Positions 3,737 through 40,036 of a stretch of 64,000 nucleotides of DNA are shown one piece after another. Source of the DNA: Psychrobacter sp. WY6 (GTDB lineage: Bacteria; Pseudomonadota; Gammaproteobacteria; Pseudomonadales; Moraxellaceae); contig NZ_CP049902.1 in assembly GCF_018448495.1 (NCBI RefSeq), positions 496,001-560,000 on the forward strand, read 5' to 3'. Each line of letters starts with the position of its first letter. The first letter of the stretch is position 1. Below the pieces are notes generated by a model. It had not been told where the DNA came from. It ran no database searches and worked only from the letters and a program-made list of their open reading frames with translations. A program made the position numbers and the translations under genes.

Positions 3737-5091
3737 ATGTTAAGTGATGCCAAAATACGTAAGCTCAAACCAACTGATAATTGTACCCCTGCCCGTCCAG
3801 ATAAATATAGTGATCAGCATGGGCTACAGCTATTAGTACGTAGCTCTGGAACGAAGACTTGGATAAGTGCATATCGCTTTGATGGTAAGCAGCAGAAAAC
3901 TACTTTAGGTGCATACCCACAGATAAGCTTAGCAGAAGCAAGAATAGCGAACTCTGATATTAAGGCTTTAGTAGCCAATGGAATCAATCCAAAGAATAAA
4001 AACGCCAAGACAAGCTTGCGAATGAGCAAGCTAAAATGTTCAATGATTATGCGCTTGAATGGCTAGAGGAGCGTGAGCGTAACGTAAAGCCCCGCACCTA
4101 TCAGCAGGACTATAATCGCATGCACAAAGACGTGCTACCGAGCTTTAAAGGCATTGCTTTAAAAGATGTGACATTCGAAGATTGTAAACTAATGGCAGAT
4201 GACATTGAAAGTAGGACTAATAATGAAGGGGCATCACCACGAGAAGTAACCAGACGCACTATCGATCTCGTTGGCAATATTCTTAGAAGAGCTATTAGAA
4301 AGCGCCTAATCGAGGTAAATCATACAGATGGGCTTAAAGAGCTATATCCAAAAGCAAAGACTAAGCACATGAAACACGTTGAGCTTAGTGAGCTACCTAA
4401 GCTCTTACAAGATATTGAAGGCTATCATGGTCACGATCAAACCCGATTAGGTATGAAGTTTTTAGCATATTCTTTTTGTCGTACTATCGAGCTTAGAATG
4501 ATGAAGTGGGAGCATATCGACTTCCCTAACCGTCTATGGCGTGTCGATATTGATAACCTTAAGATTGCGCGTAAGCACGTCGTACCGCTGTCAGATCAAA
4601 TGCTAGCAGTATTAGAAGAGATGAAACCCATCACAGGGCAATATGAATACGTGTTCTATCATACGGGCATGCATCAGCCATATAGTGAAGAGTTTATCAA
4701 TAACGCGCTTGATATCTTAGGCTACGCAGGCAAACAGACAGGGCACGGCTTTCGGCACATCGCCTCTACCAACCTAAATGAGCTTGGCTATATGGGAGAT
4801 GCCATCGAAAAGCAGATGGCACATGATAAAAAAAGCAGCATTCGCGCAGTTTATAACGCGCAACACTTAGAAGAGCGCCGTAAAATCATGCAAGTTTGGG
4901 CAGACTTCTTAGACTTACTTAGAGACAAGGGCGAAGTCGTAGACTTCCAGACAGCTCGTCAGCAGATCGAGCAGTCATTGGCAAGTAAGCAACCTGACTC
5001 ATTACAAAATGCTGATAAGCAAACCTTGATTAAAGCATTGTTAAATCAAGGACTCACAGTAGATGATTTACAAGGTTATATTTATAAGTAG
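3737..5091 (+). CDS. int: P4-type tyrosine integrase of the island (frame shift near 4000)
   Basis: Site-specific recombinase that would insert and excise the island at tRNA-Ser. The N-terminal arm-binding domain (DUF4102 type: LSDAKIRKLKP, GLQLLVRSSGTKTW, LGAYPQISLAEAR) covers residues 1-85. The core-binding domain starts at FNDYALEWLEE, and the catalytic domain holds the arginine in CRTIELRMMKW, the HGFRH box and the tyrosine in RAVYNAQ. The frame changes in the A5 run at 3998-4002; one more A gives a continuous protein of about 450 residues. That loss is either real, which would fix the island in place, or one of the many homopolymer errors in this window. The tail overlaps the convergent gene at 5082 by ten bases. 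Confidence 0.88.
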
Positions 5092-6529: not shown

Positions 6530-6658
6530 ATGAATAACATACTTTTAGGGCACGACTACGTTGTTACCAAAGTTGATAAACTCGTAAATGATATATTCGA
6601 TCCTGAATTCTCAATTAGTATTCAGCAAATAGTTGAGCAGCTCAATACTTACTACTAA
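6530..6658 (+). CDS. 42-residue ORF coupled to the Gp2-like gene
   Basis: ATG at 6530 gives MNNILLGHDYVVTKVDKLVND and stops with TAA at 6656-6658. The A of the next gene's ATG is the last base of this stop (TAATG), so translation of the two is likely coupled. No family recognised; the short length and weak ribosome site keep confidence low. It may act only as a leader peptide. Confidence 0.4.
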   Translation: MNNILLGHDYVVTKVDKLVNDIFDPEFSISIQQIVEQLNTYY

Positions 6659-7464
6659 TGACATCTCACTTTGATGACGAATTGGTTTATGCCAATTCGA
6701 TCAAATGGTTTATAGGCAGCTGCTATCTTGTTTGTGGTCATTGCTATCCCAATGAGATTATTTGGAATGAGGCGATGGCAGAGAGTTTCTTGAATGCGCT
6801 AAGTTTTTATCAGTACGAGTATGCCACTGATAAGGCAGATTTTGCTTTTCAAGAAGAGCGCAATAGCCAATCACTTATGGAGTATATGAATTATTACTTA
6901 GAGAAATACGCACGTGTACTCATCGTAAGAGTAGATCTTAAATTGAAAGTAGAGTTTGCACACCTTGTTAACGCTGAAACTTTTCAGGGTTTTATGAAGC
7001 AGTTTATGAGGGTTATTCAAAGAGATAAGGAAGTAGAGAAAAAGAGAAAAGCTAATAGCAGTATGAATAGTGACAAAGGCTGCTTTGAAGATCTAAGGGG
7101 TTATGCTTGGGCTATAGAGCAAGGTGTTGAGACTGGTGGCTTACACTGTCACTTGGTTTTGATTTATAACGGTGACAAGCGTCAGAAAGACTGGTTCTTA
7201 GGAGAAGCTGTCAGTAAGAGATGGTTTGAGATTACAGAGGGTATAAGCCATCATTTTAACTGTAATACCACTGAATATAAACAAGAACAAAAACGTAGAG
7301 GTAAGCTCGGTATCGGGATGATTTATAGAGACAAGCCTTTAGAGGTGAATAACGCCATTAATGCAGCGCTATATCTAACTCGTCCCAACAAGTATGAGCA
7401 ACGCCTTAAATCTTGGCCACTTAACATGCGTAGCTTTGGTCGCGGGGCTCTACCTAATAGCTAG
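6658..7464 (+). CDS. Inovirus Gp2-like / YagK-YfjJ domain protein (putative replication protein)
   Basis: 268 residues. The core YAWAIEQGVETGGLHCHLVL (about residues 150-170) is the signature of the YagK/YfjJ family, which is annotated as inovirus-type Gp2 in phages and integrated satellites. The HCH pair sits on a hydrophobic strand as in HUH-type rolling-circle initiators. The C-terminal half keeps the family pattern LYLTRPNK followed by RSFGRG. A role in element replication is inferred from the family's occurrence in satellites and inoviruses; no tyrosine nucleophile can be assigned by eye. It follows the 42-residue ORF with a one-base overlap. Confidence 0.68.
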   Translation: MTSHFDDELVYANSIKWFIGSCYLVCGHCYPNEIIWNEAMAESFLNALSFYQYEYATDKADFAFQEERNSQSLMEYMNYYLEKYARVLIVRVDLKLKVEFAHLVNAETFQGFMKQFMRVIQRDKEVEKKRKANSSMNSDKGCFEDLRGYAWAIEQGVETGGLHCHLVLIYNGDKRQKDWFLGEAVSKRWFEITEGISHHFNCNTTEYKQEQKRRGKLGIGMIYRDKPLEVNNAINAALYLTRPNKYEQRLKSWPLNMRSFGRGALPNS

Positions 7465-11264: not shown

Positions 11265-11374
11265 ATTGTTTTGTCTAAGGACAGTCGTTGGACGGCATAG
11301 GACGCCATAAAAAAATATGGGACTCGGTAAGTATATGAGAGGTGATGCTCTCATTCACTTACAAGGAGATAATC

Positions 11375-11635
11375 ATGGAAAACTTAAACGTAAACACTCA
11401 GCAAAACACCTCAACGCCAAGCATGCCACAAATACCTCGCATGCTTCCGCTAAAGCAAGTCATACATTATACAGGGCTTAGTAGCACGACGATCTATGAC
11501 ATGCTTGATAAAAGATCGAATCGTTATGACCCCACTTTCCCTATTCAGGTCAAGCTATCAAAGGGACGTGTAGCATGGGTTGAAAGCGAGGTGGCTGAGT
11601 GGATTGAGAGCAAGATAGCTGCCCGATTTCATTAG
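11375..11635 (+). CDS. AlpA-family DNA-binding regulator
   Basis: 86 residues. The start at 11375 is set by AAGGAG seven bases upstream. The helix-turn-helix unit LPLKQVIHYTGLSSTTIYDML (about 24-44), then FPIQVKLSKGRVAWVESEVAEWIESK, is the standard AlpA fold. AlpA-type proteins act as transcription activators or excision factors on P4-like prophages. Here it sits between the recombination cassette and the 10-bp tandem array, which could be its target; that link is only positional. Confidence 0.82.
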   Translation: MENLNVNTQQNTSTPSMPQIPRMLPLKQVIHYTGLSSTTIYDMLDKRSNRYDPTFPIQVKLSKGRVAWVESEVAEWIESKIAARFH

Positions 11636-11650
11636 AGATCAAAATACAGA

Positions 11651-11677
11651 TAAGCCGCACTACGCGGCTTATTTTTT
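11651..11677 (+). terminator. Rho-independent terminator after the AlpA gene
   Basis: TAAGCCGC and GCGGCTTA pair around ACTAC, followed by T6 that runs straight into the tandem array. Confidence 0.85.
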
Positions 11678-11775
11678 CGTCTAAGTTCGTCTAAGTTCGT
11701 CTAAGTTCGTCTAAGTTCGTCTAAGTTCGTCTAAGTTCGTCTAAGTTCGTCTAAGTTCGTCTAAGTTCGTCTAAG
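11676..11775. repeat. Tandem array: ten exact copies of a 10-bp unit
   Basis: Ten uninterrupted copies of TTCGTCTAAG, followed by TTTAGAC, so that GTCTAA-GT-TTAGAC (11769-11782) forms a closing palindrome. A related single copy (TTTGTCTAAG) lies at 11270-11279 upstream of the AlpA gene. The period is close to one DNA turn, which would put every unit on the same face. There are no spacers, so it is not a CRISPR. Confidence 0.9.
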
Positions 11776-11826
11776 TTTAGACTAACTTCCAAACCTTACC
11801 CTCAAAATAGATGAGTTTTTTTCTCT

Positions 11827-13421
11827 TCATTTTTGAAGCAAGTTTTTTATTTTATGAAATTTCTGCTCATCAGTTAGAATATCAGGAAGCTTGTTAGATA
11901 AAAATTTATCAAAATCCGAACGCTGGGCTTGTTCAAATTGTTTCAGAAATTCTAAAACAGCAGTTTCATAATAAGCATCATCTAAACCACGCATCTGCAT
12001 ATACTCCGCCTGCTGTTCTGTATGTCTCGCAACATCAGCGGCTATCATGTAATTATTTTTACGACCTTCTATCAATGATTTTTTACGTAACGTTTCTGCT
12101 TCATCTTCAGTGATCGCTTGTCTTTTTTGTACTTTATCTAGTGCAATAATATCGTGCAATGATAAATTACCTACTTGCGCCAACTGTTTAGCATACTCTT
12201 GATCCAGCACTTTACCAGTGAACTTCACTCGCACTCTGTTGTCTGATAAGTCATAATCTGGCAAAGGAAAAAAGCGCTTGTACTGAATCTGATACATTGT
12301 TTTGATGCCACTACCAATAGTGTCCATCATATTTAGACTGACCATAGCATTAACCAAAAATGGATTACGATAGCTCACTTCAGGCGCATCTTGTAGCAAG
12401 ACGTTTTCGATGGTCTTTGGAATAAACTCACCACTATTTTGGAAAATCAGTGTTGAGTCTTCTTTTTCAACCACCGTAATACGTCCACCTAGCTGATAAT
12501 CTTGATGACCAATGGCATTACTTAATGCCTCACGAATGATATAAGGATCGTACTGCTGCACCTCTTCAGGAAATAGTGTACCAGCAGGCATGTAGCGGTA
12601 GTTTAGATTGCGAATTTTGTTATAAACCTCGTCCAAGGCTAACAAAAACGGCGGTTCAAAATGTTGATAGTCTTTTTCAATGCCATCAGTGCCTTTTAGA
12701 ATCCACGTGATATGCGCTTGCGCTGGGCTTAAAAAATATGTTGACTCGTAATACCCTAATAAAATGATAGCGGAATTGGTGATCTGACCGCGAATGGTAA
12801 TTTTGGCTTTATTCAAAAAGGTGATGTCATCCCATCCTTTTATGTCCTCAGCCAAACGCTTATTCTTTTCAGCAAAGACTTGTCTAGCAACAGCAATGGC
12901 TTTAGGATCAAGATCTTCAAGCGTTGCCTTATGACAAATCTCGGCACTCCAGTCATCTGCTCGGTTTTGCCAGAGCTTACGGCTTTGATCTGGGTATTGC
13001 TTAAGCAGTTTTGTAAAGCTACCAATACGAATATAAGGCTCATGTAAAAAGCTAACAGGCGTATTCTTGGCTGCAGGAATCTCGAACAGTACTACCGCTT
13101 TACCATCAATTTGTAACTCATGAATGGTGAAGTGAATTTTAGGACTTAAGCGGCTAACTAGCCAATGCTCTAAATCTTCGTTGCCTTTGGCTTTTTTATT
13201 TTCGGGCTAAAGCTTGTACCAACAATGTTATGAGTACCGTCCTCTACTCCAAACACTAAGTAGCCAAATTTTTTACCAGACAAACAAGCGCCATTAGCAA
13301 GCGCAGATATACGTTTACCCACCTCTTCAGGGCTATGAAAGTTATGCTTAAACTCAAGCCACTCTTGCTCAGAGGGCTGTTGAGTTAGGCTTAAAACGAG
13401 GTTTTGGTAGTGATTGGGCAT
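11827..13421 (-). CDS. AlbA/Schlafen-type ATP-binding protein (one frame shift)
   Basis: A predicted DNA-binding/ATP-binding protein of the COG2865 type. From ATG 13421 the N-terminal AlbA_2 domain reads EWLEFKHNF and ISALANGACLSGKKFGYLVFGV. The frame changes in the A6 run at about 13191-13197; beyond it one frame stays open to 11827. In that frame lies the GHKL-type ATP site (REALSNAIGHQDY, then FQNSGEF, and MDTIGSGIKTM). The total would be about 530 residues. These proteins are frequent on mobile elements and in defence regions; some act as regulators. It converges on the tandem array and is transcribed away from the DUF262 gene. Confidence 0.75.
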
Positions 13422-18913: not shown

Positions 18914-20155
18914 TTACTTTACTGTCACCTGACCATTCATTAGCATAGGTAGTAACCAGTCTCTTAGGTTCTCTAGCTTTTTATTCTCCAAAGTCTTAAC
19001 TTTTATTTGTCTAAATAGAGGATCAACTACTTCGTAATACTTAGTGAGTAGCTCTTTATTTGGGTATAACATATTTATTGAGCTAAAATCGCCCTTGTTC
19101 ATATTAGCGAATGTATTACCTGTTTTAGCTTTTGCTCCTTCAAAGTATGCTTTTATTGCGAAGTACAAATAATACATATTCAGCCGATTACTACAGACTA
19201 CAGAGTTTTCTGCTGATTAGTTTGTGATTTCTCGGTTACGAAACCAACTAACCCAGGACTGGCTATACATGTAACACAAATTGTATCCTCAGGAAGATAC
19301 TTATTTTTTGAGTATCCGCACCTTCAGATGTTAGCGTCTCTTCAGTCTGGACAATAAAAGTATTAGCACGAATATCGCCAATAGTTATAAAAGGAGTATC
19401 GCCATCGAAATACTCAGGCTTCTTTTTTGAAGGTGTTTTACCAGTTACAATATTTGGCTCAATATCCTCTATCGTTGAACTACTCCACCCCTCAGGTATC
19501 TCTCGCTTTAGCACTTCGTTATAAACCATCTTGCCGCCACACGATTTATAAGACTTGCCGTCTGCATTAGGGAAATCAAACTGTACAAACCAGTAGTCAT
19601 ATAGCGTCTTTGCCATAGCTTCTAGTTCGGCGTTGATTTGGTTGTTGAGCTCGATTTTTTTGTCAATAGAAATCAATATCTCAACAAGTCCATCTTGCGA
19701 ACTTCTTTCAGATGGTATGTAAATCTCTATATTTGAAAATGTAGATTTGTTTAGAATTGGCGTTCGAGTTACGGTAGCCTGTGAAAAAAGAAAATCTTTT
19801 TTGTTTTCAGCCAATAGTAAATATAAAAAGGGTTATATCTATCTCTAATATTAGTAATTGAGTTAATTTGTTGATTAGTTACACAAGCGCCTTCAACGAT
19901 GCCTATATTTCCCATATCCCAACCGATACATCCAACAAGTACACTAACTCCATTTAAAGTGCTGCTTTTTATACTGTCAAAACCTTGTTGGGTAACCATC
20001 CTTTCGGACTCAGTAATTAAAAAATGTTTATGTAAGTCTGTAGGACCTATAAACATATAATCATTGCCGTAGTTATTAGGATTACTAGTTTTAGGTGTTC
20101 TACCAGTAGTAACCGTACCTATATCACTAATTTTCACGTAGCTAAAGTTATTCAT
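18914..20155 (-). CDS. hsdS: Type I restriction specificity subunit HsdS (three frame shifts)
   Basis: DNA-recognition subunit of the HsdRMS complex. ATG 20155 overlaps the end of hsdM by eight bases. The first target-recognition domain opens MNNFSYVKISDIGTVTTGRT and contains VGCIGWDMGNIGIVEG. The central conserved helix region is IDKKIELNNQINAELEAMAK, then WFVQFDFPNADGK. The second domain starts at PEGWSSSTIEDIE, and the C-terminal conserved region ends LENLRDWLLPMLMNGQ. The frame changes near 19805, 19290 and 19215; at the last, one base is missing from the codons for TNQQINSVVC. If the shifts are real the system has no specificity subunit; the density of such shifts elsewhere makes error more likely. 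Confidence 0.82.
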
Positions 20156-21775
20156 ACTTTAACTCCGCCAACTGCTTTTTAATCTCATCCTCTAACTCAT
20201 GAGATTGCTTAAACAAGCTATCTAAATTATCAGTAAAGACTTGCATTTTTTCAGCGAACTGCTTAGGTGTATCAGTATATTCAATTTTTACCTCAAAATA
20301 TTGACCTGCACTCAGACTATAATTTTTTAAGCTTATATCTTCATAGCTGACTGTTACGGACAAATCGTCGACTTGCTGTTTGTTATTAAACACATTAACG
20401 ATCTGCTGCTCTTCATCAGCACTTAAGACAGTCTTTTGGGTTTACCTTCCTTAACTTTCTTACCTAGATTTGACGCATCAACCAATACGACATCGCCATC
20501 ATTACTATCATCAATAAATAAAATTGATACGTTTGTCCCTGTAGTGGCAAAGATATTGGATGGCATAGACACCACACCAGCAAGCATTTTATCATCGATT
20601 AATTTTTGGCGAATTTTTTTACCAATACCAGTAGAGGTAATAAAACCAGTCGGTACGACCACCGCTGCCTTACCACCTTTTTTGAGCGAGGTAATAATAT
20701 GCTGTAAAAAGAGCTGATAAATTGCCATACTCTCTTTTTCCTTTTTGGGTATAGTGGGAATACCTGCAAAGAAACGTTCTTTGTTCTCGTTGCTATCTAG
20801 GGCATCTCGATAATCGCTAAAGTCTAGCTTAAATGGTGGATTGGAGACTATATAGTCAAACTTCTTAAGCTTATCATCGTCCTTATGATAAGGGTGATAA
20901 ATGGTATTACCTTGAATCACGTTAGGTATAGAATGCACTAAATTATTTAAGATTAGGTTTAAGCGTAATAGGTTCGATGACTTTTGCGAGATGTCTTGGG
21001 TGTAGATGGTACAACGGTCTTCACCGATGGCATGGGCAACGTTCATCAATAGCGTACCTGAACCTGCTGAAGGGTCGTAACAGGTGACATCCCTTACCGT
21101 ACCACGCTCCGCTTGTGGCACCAGTATCTCAGCCATAATGCGAGCAACTGCATGTGGTGTGAAATACTCAGCATATTTACCGCCCGAGTTACTGTTATAG
21201 TCTTTAATTAAGTACTCAAAAATACCTGCATAAAAATCGAATTTTTGGTCAAAGATACGCTCAAAACTAAACTCGATCAGCTTATTAATAACAGCACGGC
21301 AAAAATCATCACGCTTAGACTCATCAGCGATGTATTGGCTGAGACGATCAAACAGAACAACTTTCGCTCCACCGTCTGTTTTTACCGCAAAGATGTCGTT
21401 GTTCTTAATCGCGATATCAATCAGCGTGTCATCAAATAGCTTAGCAAAGTCAGGCGCGTTACTTTGGCTGAACAGATAGCTGATAAAGTGCTGAGGCTCC
21501 AAACGAGCAGTATCTGAGCTCATCTGTAGCTGTAGCATCTCATAGTCTTCTTCACTCATATCACTAAGCGACTTTTCCCAGTTATCCACCTTGGCGATAT
21601 CTTCATCTATTTTTTTAGCTTCATAAGCAAATTTATCATTTAGAAACTTGTACAAGAATATCTGTGTGATAATTTTGAACTCGTTACCATCATTACCTAG
21701 ACCATAATTGGCACAAATACTTTTTAAACTATCGATTAATTCTTGGGTTTTCGCTTTAAACTCAAGCTCTACCAT
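20148..21775 (-). CDS. hsdM: Type I restriction DNA methyltransferase HsdM (one frame shift)
   Basis: N6-adenine methyltransferase subunit. The N-terminal HsdM_N helical domain occupies residues 1-150. The catalytic core has the cofactor site DPSAGSGTLL (about 235-244) and the catalytic NPPF (about 302), then the family pattern KGGKAAVVVPTGF. The frame stops at 20423, shortly after GKPKR; one extra base near 20430 joins it to the frame VLSADEEQQIVNVFNNKQQ, which runs to 20148. The total is about 540 residues, normal for HsdM. It overlaps the hsdR stop by seven bases at the start and hsdS by eight bases at the end, a tight operon. Confidence 0.9.
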
Positions 21776-39060: not shown

Positions 39061-39855
39061 ATGTCTAAAGGTTTAATTTCCGTTATTCGTGGCCTCTTAT
39101 CTGTTATCGGCATCATACTTATCATCGATTGCGCTGCATTGATGGTCGTCGGTAAAGTCAACTTCGGCTCGGTTGTACCTTTTTTAGTCGGCATGGTTTT
39201 TGTCATACATGGAATGTTTTGGCATGCAATACGCAGGTTTTGCAGCCAACATTATGGCTTTAACTGCCTTTGGTATGGGTTATGGGCTGTATTTATACTT
39301 TGGTTGTTGAGCTTCGCTCTATTTATTTGGTCATTGCAACAGCAGATTGCGCTTAGCCAGCAGCCTGCACCGACAGTGGCAGCGATTATTATATTAGGCT
39401 CAGGCACGGTTGCAGGTAAGCCGACACCGACGCTCGCCAAGCGCTTGGACACCGCTGTGCCCCTTATCGAGACGCAACCAGATGCTTTGGTGATGACCAG
39501 TGGTGGCGTTGGTTTTCAGCGTACACGTAGCGAAGCCGATATTATGGCCACGTATTTGCATGAGGCACATGGCGTGCCATTCGAACGCATTTTACAAGAA
39601 GGTAAAAGTACCAGTACGGAAGAAAATCTCGCTAACAGCCGAGCGTTGTTAGAAGCAAAAGGGCTGTCTATCACTGATCCTATCGCCATCGTTACCAGTG
39701 ATTTCCATAGCATTCGCGCAGCCAGCATTGCGCGACATCAGGGCTATACACAACCGATCACCGTCGCCAGTCCCACGCCTTTATCCATTCGTTATAACGC
39801 TTGGTTTCGCGAGTATTTTGCCTTTGTCAGTGGCTGGTTGTTAGGAGAGTATTGA
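39061..39855 (+). CDS. YdcF/DUF218 family membrane protein
   Basis: 264 residues. Three N-terminal hydrophobic segments (about 7-27, 36-51, 70-95) are followed by the DUF218 domain: AAIIILGSGTVAGKPTPTLA (about 108-127), TSGGVGFQRTRSEADIMATY, EGKSTSTEENLANSRALLE and IVTSDFHSIRAASIAR. This SanA/ElyC/YdcF fold is linked to envelope functions, such as lipid-carrier metabolism for ElyC. Its exact role here is unknown. A monocistronic gene between the LysR gene and the cardiolipin synthase gene. Confidence 0.85.
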   Translation: MSKGLISVIRGLLSVIGIILIIDCAALMVVGKVNFGSVVPFLVGMVFVIHGMFWHAIRRFCSQHYGFNCLWYGLWAVFILWLLSFALFIWSLQQQIALSQQPAPTVAAIIILGSGTVAGKPTPTLAKRLDTAVPLIETQPDALVMTSGGVGFQRTRSEADIMATYLHEAHGVPFERILQEGKSTSTEENLANSRALLEAKGLSITDPIAIVTSDFHSIRAASIARHQGYTQPITVASPTPLSIRYNAWFREYFAFVSGWLLGEY

Positions 39856-40036
39856 TGGAGGTGTATACTTCACCAGCTTAAACAAGCTTAAACAAGCTTA
39901 CTGCTAAGTATCATAGCTCCAGCGTTGTCGCATTGCTGTTTTTACCAATCAAAACGGTGGTAATTTTACAGTGCGTTATAATCAGTAAGAACCGCTGATA
40001 AATACTGCAAAAAAAATAATAATGATGGAGCGCATT

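Follow-up and report, generated by a model that had tools for sequence, protein, structure and literature searches.

Helix-phased repeats behind the stop codons of bacterial Schlafen-ATPase genes, candidate binding sites for the encoded winged helix

The array and its island

The array lies in a Psychrobacter tRNA-Ser defence island within the window, by which is meant the whole 64,000-nucleotide stretch of Psychrobacter sp. WY6 that was analysed. The island encodes an integrase, a YagK/YfjJ-type protein, DUF932 and YqaJ proteins, a Gp3-like recombination directionality factor and AlpA, and downstream of these come a GmrSD-type restriction gene and then a type I restriction system. Ten copies of TTCGTCTAAG plus TT (TRF: period 10, 10.2 copies, 100% matches) separate the 3′ ends of alpA and of a Schlafen gene and start 40 bp behind the former, and an earlier note on this DNA was right in calling the ten copies exact and in placing them just behind alpA between convergent genes (Table 1). 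When the 3.49-Mb genome was scanned with up to two mismatches allowed, this was the only such array found. In the window, GTCTAAG occurs 23 times against 5.9 expected, a count reached in 0 of 100 shuffles.

Table 1. Features at and next to the array, in window coordinates
Feature	Position	Strand	Remarks
Single unit before alpA	11270..11279	-	1 mismatch; one of four 1-mismatch singletons in the window
alpA, AlpA-type regulator (PF05930)	11342..11635	+	neighbour of the array, not its owner; absent beside the arrays of L069, L070, L074 and L076
Terminator-like hairpin and T-run behind alpA	11652..11677	+	read directly from the sequence; the T-run meets the first array unit
Repeat array	11676..11775	-	ten exact 10-bp units; TTCGTCTAAG on the plus strand, CTTAGACGAA on the Schlafen coding strand
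GTCTAA-GT-TTAGAC	11769..11782		last array unit abutting the Schlafen gene's terminal Val and stop codons
Schlafen-ATPase-winged-helix gene, split into several frames	11777..13421	-	from ORFs, homology to intact copies and domains of an intact relative

The stop codon of the Schlafen gene, in the frame of its relatives, is at 11777-11779. The longest of its open fragments in the window ends at 11827. Two other genes in the window are likewise split over frames, the integrase (3737-5091) and a probable hsdS (18914-20393). Because the estimated completeness of the assembly is 85.6%, these breaks are possibly sequencing indels.

Two further elements that the earlier note had described are present in the sequence but do not stand as sites. 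The palindrome GTCTAA-GT-TTAGAC, which was thought to close the array, has as its right arm the last codon and stop codon (GTC TAA) of the minus-strand gene, in the frame of the intact relatives; it is missing from L069 and from both Moraxella loci, and thus was rejected as a conserved element. The related single copy before alpA exists with one mismatch. However, four such singletons in the window are about what plain arithmetic predicts by chance, and the sister loci L071-L073 have no single copy before alpA, so that it is probably a chance occurrence and was dropped as a real site. Other readings of the repeats were also discarded. They are not protein-coding, since a stop triplet within a 10-bp unit blocks every reading frame, as inspection confirmed; nor do they form a CRISPR array, the units running head to tail without spacers. 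Sites in the promoter region of the Schlafen gene itself were rejected as well: in eight loci of 13-16 kb, arrays of the unit were present at their known places and nowhere else, the rest being scattered 1-mismatch singletons.

Arrays at the 3′ ends of Schlafen genes

To which gene does the array belong? Of 105 Psychrobacter genomes, six (counting that of the window) have the exact double unit. A shorter word, GTCTAAGTTCGTCTAA, was found in eight of the 348 family genomes, and the two additional ones both belong to the genus Moraxella (one, G314, is M. lacunata). In the five other Psychrobacter and the two Moraxella genomes the unit stands at the stop codon of a Schlafen gene, and in all eight genomes one flank of the array is the 3′ end of this same gene; in intact copies, the stop codon touches or almost touches the array. 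The other flank varies: it is alpA in the window and in the sister loci L071, L072 and L073, and hsdR in the two Moraxella genomes (HSDR_N was tested in L099, and L098/L076 were assigned by a similar N-terminus); L069 and L070 have other genes there. The Schlafen proteins of Psychrobacter and Moraxella are 46-48% identical, and the unit is shared nonetheless. At the level of sequence, the comparison of these loci shows the array to be a 3′-end feature of the Schlafen gene family. AlpA was rejected as its owner, because the array follows the Schlafen gene without alpA in L069, L070 and the Moraxella loci L074 and L076.

The same observations bear on the idea that the array is an operator or attachment site of the island's AlpA, integrase or segregation machinery, a reading invited by its place so close behind alpA in a tRNA-Ser island with an integrase and a Gp3-like directionality factor. 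This is extremely unlikely, since the Schlafen gene has the array behind it also where alpA is missing and within restriction operons, and since the unit switches along with the Schlafen C-terminus even next to a retained AlpA-like gene: in L088 such a gene adjoins as in the window, yet the Schlafen end and the unit are those of clade B (see below). Roles in segregation, replication or integration, for which the earlier note had invoked parS- or iteron-like arrays, were not borne out either. Ten window ORFs between 4036 and 24060, among which a YagK/YfjJ-type protein lies at 6658-7464, contained no ParB or ParA Pfam domain and no replication-initiator domain.

The number of units is not fixed. 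The CGTCTAAG word is found 11, 3, 8, 9, 9, 10 and 7 times in L069-L074 and L076, and ten times in the window. Since copy number thus varies from 3 to 11 units, slippage is also at work, as the earlier note had supposed. A prophage-like region of M. lacunata G314 has a ninth array at L075:7397-7436, whose four units comprise two exact copies and two with one mismatch. It precedes a small minus-strand ORF by about 130 bp, and the 15 kb examined contain no Schlafen gene; L010 near 2760-2800 and L037 were noted alongside it. G314 also has a Schlafen gene with ten units on another contig. The prophage-like array may serve as a lure or an operator, or it may be a remnant.

Homologs were then collected by protein, disregarding repeats. 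They were present in 40 of 348 genomes of the family, 14 of 369 of the class and 7 of 398 of the phylum (the window's included in the last two sets), and also in 4 plasmid records and 7 viral-contig loci. (Five of the seven viral-contig relatives come from a distant subfamily, and one of the four non-redundant members of that subfamily has a significant array.) Phage records gave one partial relative and nothing more; E. coli genomes held no relative of L113 and, for L110, only two short matches inside a type III endonuclease gene. In most homologs, direct repeats of a 10-12-bp unit run from the stop codon, and the window array is one case of this broader pattern. The unit itself differs among groups: CTTAGACGAA in clade A and Moraxella, TAGCTAAGAA/TAGCTAAAGA in clade B, TTTAGACATT in clade C, L107 and L118, TTTGAGAGAGA-like units in L101, L103, L104 and L109, AATGCAGAATA-like units in L102, L110 and L137, TTTAAGAAAG/CTACGAAAGA in L129-L131 and L134-L136, CTAGACAAACT in L132, TTTAAACGACT in L133 and the TATAGCGGAATCC type in L122.

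Repeats were tested in a 110-nt segment starting 10 nt before the stop codon, with p values taken against dinucleotide shuffles. Loci with a 4-mer overlap above 0.75 were dropped, which left 46, or 42 with L123-L126 counted apart; L120, whose C-terminus is off the contig, and L089/L108, which are the window copy, were left out. Direct repeats were significant at p≤0.05 in 32 of the 42 non-redundant homologs (24 at p≤0.01), namely 19 of 20 within the family and 13 of 22 elsewhere. Ten homologs had no significant array in the 110-nt segment, nine of them among the 22 from outside the family; in a 220-nt segment two of the ten became significant (L103, p 0.027; L115, p 0.030), and L117 reached 0.056. 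The controls gave 5 of 38 for the 110 nt before the start codon (1 at 0.01), 2 of 42 for a mid-gene segment (0 at 0.01) and 6 of 144 for other gene ends in the loci (2 at 0.01, of which one is itself a Schlafen array approached from its far side). One control gene end with a repeat is in the window itself, where 2.6 copies of AGCTTAAACA at 39875-39900 begin likewise near a stop codon, just behind an unrelated ORF ending at 39855 (YdcF-like by eye).

Could the arrays be neutral tandem duplications at the gene end, spread with the gene and without function? Exact copies in numbers from 3 to 11 are what such duplication might leave, and some control gene ends (the 6 of 144) have repeats too. However, the same 10-bp unit is kept in two genera at 46-48% protein identity, the cores are conserved where the spacers have diverged, and repeats are enriched at the stop codon over upstream, mid-gene and other-gene positions, which makes a neutral origin quite improbable.

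What follows the array differs from locus to locus. The next ORF was searched for its family in 20 of 47 listed loci and proved to be hsdR in 8, a type III res gene in 5, hsdM in 1, a TOTE-type primase in 1, an AAA/AbiEii-like gene in 1 and unrelated in 4. In L098, L099, L102, L130 and L131, hsdR or res starts 61-111 bp past the stop codon of the array gene, and this gap is mostly array. In two annotated alphaproteobacterial plasmids the order is methyltransferase, Schlafen gene ('RNA-binding domain-containing protein'), DEAD/DEAH helicase. Arrays are still present where unrelated genes follow (L096, L129, L132), and in the window there is no hsdR or res directly next to the array; thus, the array belongs to the Schlafen gene first.

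The units are also found away from Schlafen genes. Of 105 Psychrobacter genomes, 13 contain TAGCTAARRATAGCTAA, ten of them at the end of a Schlafen gene or next to what remains of one and three elsewhere (L142, L144, L148); TTTAGACATT pairs at 19-22 bp are present in 6 of the 105, four at the gene end, one beside a broken copy and one elsewhere. A TTTAGACATTA array of TTTAGACATT type lies at L155:1480-1540 (Psychrobacter G096), about 60 bp away from where a 234-aa ORF on the opposite strand ends, with no Schlafen gene within the 3 kb examined. Direct-repeat pairs of TTTAGACATT were seen in at least 120 stretches of viral contigs, and none of the 80 viral-contig loci scanned (L162-L241) had a Schlafen gene beside them, so that TTTAGACATT is not exclusive to the gene. 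In these 80 loci the lags were 10-12 in 72 of 110 cases, 13-19 in 5 and 20-22 in 33; a reversed control pattern gave 32 stretches in viral contigs, with 13 of 32 lags at 13-19. At L192:1797-1950, TTTAGACATT and TAGCTAA-type repeats stand side by side behind a gene with an integrase-like C-terminus; these two units are otherwise found behind Schlafen genes of different clades.

Units, winged helices and the helical period

The array gene encodes a protein of about 548 residues with SLFN_AlbA_2 and HATPase_c_4 domains. Both domains score above the curated cut-offs in the intact copies L071, L074 and L076, to which the broken window copy is homologous. An AlphaFold2 model of the L071/L077 protein (pLDDT 82.5, pTM 0.58) predicts helices at 482-496, 501-509 and 518-534 which, with two strands, form a winged helix at the C-terminus (secondary structure 482-547). 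The best Foldseek match was DIP2311 (3lmm), followed by human SLFN14, SLFN11, a RecG-related N-domain, pig SLFN11 and SLFN13. With VIA-align, histidine-kinase ATPase domains matched over about 223-405, and winged helices (Rpa2, DpnI and Z-alpha with Z-DNA) matched 478-548 at Z 9.3-10.2, which by the tool's own note is evidence for the fold, not for its function. The modelled C-terminus is thus a winged helix in its fold.

The unit changes in step with the winged helix. In four pairs of clade A and clade B proteins, identity is 89-95% over 483 residues and then falls to 39-45% over the last 65; despite proteins that are nearly identical up to the winged helix, the arrays differ. As these alignments show, winged helix and array have been exchanged together between near-identical proteins. 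A second case is less simple. Outside the winged helix, the Moraxella proteins are 53-59% identical to clade C and L107 and 46-48% to clade A, and their unit is that of clade A. The Moraxella winged helix as a whole is not closer to clade A (45-48%, versus 44-52% to clade C), and the only part that looks alike between Moraxella and clade A is the presumed recognition helix, HK[IV]KNLLQ. On the other hand, L107 has a clade-A-like helix, HKVKNLLQ, and the TTTAGACATT unit, which goes against a simple helix-unit rule. With N-terminal identity removed, same-unit status correlated with winged-helix identity (partial r 0.46, p 0.0005) and with the recognition-helix slice (partial r 0.31, p 0.0005) among 37 of 45 aligned homologs (all but L104, L111, L112, L114, L116, L119, L121 and L128), with unit classes assigned by eye. 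Since the pairs are not independent and neighbours travel together, the correlation supports recognition without proving it; likewise, as the array adjoins the winged-helix end, the joint exchange could be plain linkage.

The swapped ends and arrays on clade A and B backbones might also suggest that the array is a recombination hot spot serving the exchange of winged-helix ends between gene copies. The A and B arrays share no unit, however, and so cannot guide an exchange between A and B, and the point of exchange, near residue 484, precedes the array by about 200 bp. A hot-spot role is therefore very unlikely.

The best periods of the 32 significant homologs were 10 (10 cases), 11 (8), 12, 17, 20 (5), 21, 22, 30, 31, 32 and 41 (2). 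They cluster near multiples of 10.5 bp, mostly at 10-12 and 20-22 bp, with a vector strength of 0.86 at 10.5 bp that was matched by none of 100,000 uniform draws from 8-45 bp, a simple null that ignores relatedness. In clade C, one 10-bp core recurs every 20-21 bp with changing spacers, and 38 of 58 inter-unit gaps in eight TTTAGACATT loci are 20 or 21 bp. (The clade C units were chosen by likeness to the core, which biases its apparent conservation, and the spacing less so.) Such phasing is as for protein sites on double-stranded DNA, whereas RNA needs none. In most clades the units have a single orientation relative to the gene; inverted copies are also present in L117 and L113 (p 0.016 and 0.033).

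These features have to be weighed against an action at the RNA level. The array would then be the 3′ end of the Schlafen message (and the 5′ leader of hsdR or res where one comes next), which the RNase-like protein binds or cuts, or the number of units would set the stop-to-start spacing and hence coupled translation. An array that begins at the stop codon, with hsdR or res starting 61-111 bp later in five loci, would suit such an element, as would the Schlafen-like N-domain, and a fixed orientation is also predicted by it. However, helical periods are meaningless for RNA, the unit changes along with the winged helix, L117 and L113 have inverted copies, and no restriction gene comes directly next in the window. 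An RNA element is thus unlikely.

The array is probably a row of double-stranded DNA sites bound by the winged helix of its own Schlafen protein. The unit differs with the winged helix and the periods follow the turn of the helix, both as read from sequence, and this suggests pairwise recognition, each protein reading the array that follows its own gene. The helix-phased binding array of the earlier note is thereby upheld indirectly, through the periods and the joint change with the winged helix; its link with AlpA is not.

Possible roles and known systems

What might such an array do? Presumably, the winged helices would bind unit by unit, side by side on one face of the DNA, tying the protein to its own gene end. 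This suggests a use in regulation or anchoring, any single regulatory role being less sure than the binding array itself. Where hsdR or res lies downstream, the bound protein could limit the restriction subunit, as a road-block or as a repressor; alternatively, the array could serve to anchor an ATP-dependent sensor that infection sets free. No hsdR or res comes directly after the array in the window, which makes anchoring or self-control the likelier role there. Slippage would add and remove units, with selection maintaining unit sequence and phase. A wider picture, speculative and with a small chance of being right, is that widespread bacterial Schlafen-ATPases have a private DNA address behind their own gene, read by an exchangeable winged helix: the nuclease would be parked on the helix-phased array and freed once the DNA or the ATPase is disturbed by infection, winged helix and array would form one mobile cassette, and some prophages would carry the host's address array as a lure.

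For a common and little-studied group of proteins, a compact rule would follow, namely that a likely binding site can be read right behind the stop codon. The many natural pairs of winged helix and unit make specificity testable by exchange, and where arrays stand ahead of hsdR or res, control of restriction is directly measurable. A search of the published literature, preprints excepted (among them one on bacterial Schlafens in defence, cited by PMC12839542), found no description of arrays behind Schlafen genes.

Plasmid iterons and parS arrays are helix-phased direct repeats beside the gene for a DNA-binding protein. They differ in that the ten window ORFs contain no Rep or ParB domain and that the unit follows the Schlafen winged helix. 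In type III toxin-antitoxin systems (ToxIN-like), tandem repeats lie upstream of an RNase gene; here they lie behind the Schlafen gene, and this parallel was rejected. The C (controller) proteins of type II restriction-modification systems bind DNA, are encoded before the endonuclease gene and may time its expression. They are small, lambda-cI-like helix-turn-helix proteins, however, and in architecture and in the number and place of their sites are unlike the Schlafen owner.

Among defence-linked proteins, Schlafen AlbA_2 domains occur in pAgo operons (PMC6299218). Proteins with a Schlafen RNase, a minimal histidine kinase and a wHTH are linked to BREX in at least 1017 taxa (PMC12839542). Their domain order is the same as in the array owner; on the other hand, an array is not mentioned in the portions of PMC12839542 drawn on here, and the loci of the present survey are mostly restriction-modification or unrelated ones.

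The closest regulatory parallel is RptR. This regulator binds direct repeats, TTTAGCTAA, that lie in a promoter within a type I restriction island, and C proteins have been compared with it (PMC12255303). The regulation of defence islands before and during infection is poorly known (PMC12255303). In four genomes, a gene for a putative RNA-binding protein lies between hsdS and hsdR (PMC12255303), which may or may not be the Schlafen family described here. Neither the VIA-align nor the Foldseek list has an RptR entry, which has no bearing on kinship either way, and a winged-helix profile compared with PDB 9R2Z gave no sequence match at E up to 10, kinship being still possible. The TAGCTA core of TTTAGCTAA is also present in the clade-B unit, whereas the window unit (TTCGTCTAAG/CTTAGACGAA) has none of the RptR-type palindromes TAGCTA, TAGATA, TATCTA and TATATA. 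RptR is an all-helical protein of 79 residues with sites in its own promoter, the operator being that of rptR-hsdMSR (PMC12255303); the array owner, in contrast, is a Schlafen-ATPase of about 548 residues with a C-terminal winged helix, whose array stands behind its gene, in the window between two gene 3′ ends, and whose unit varies by clade.
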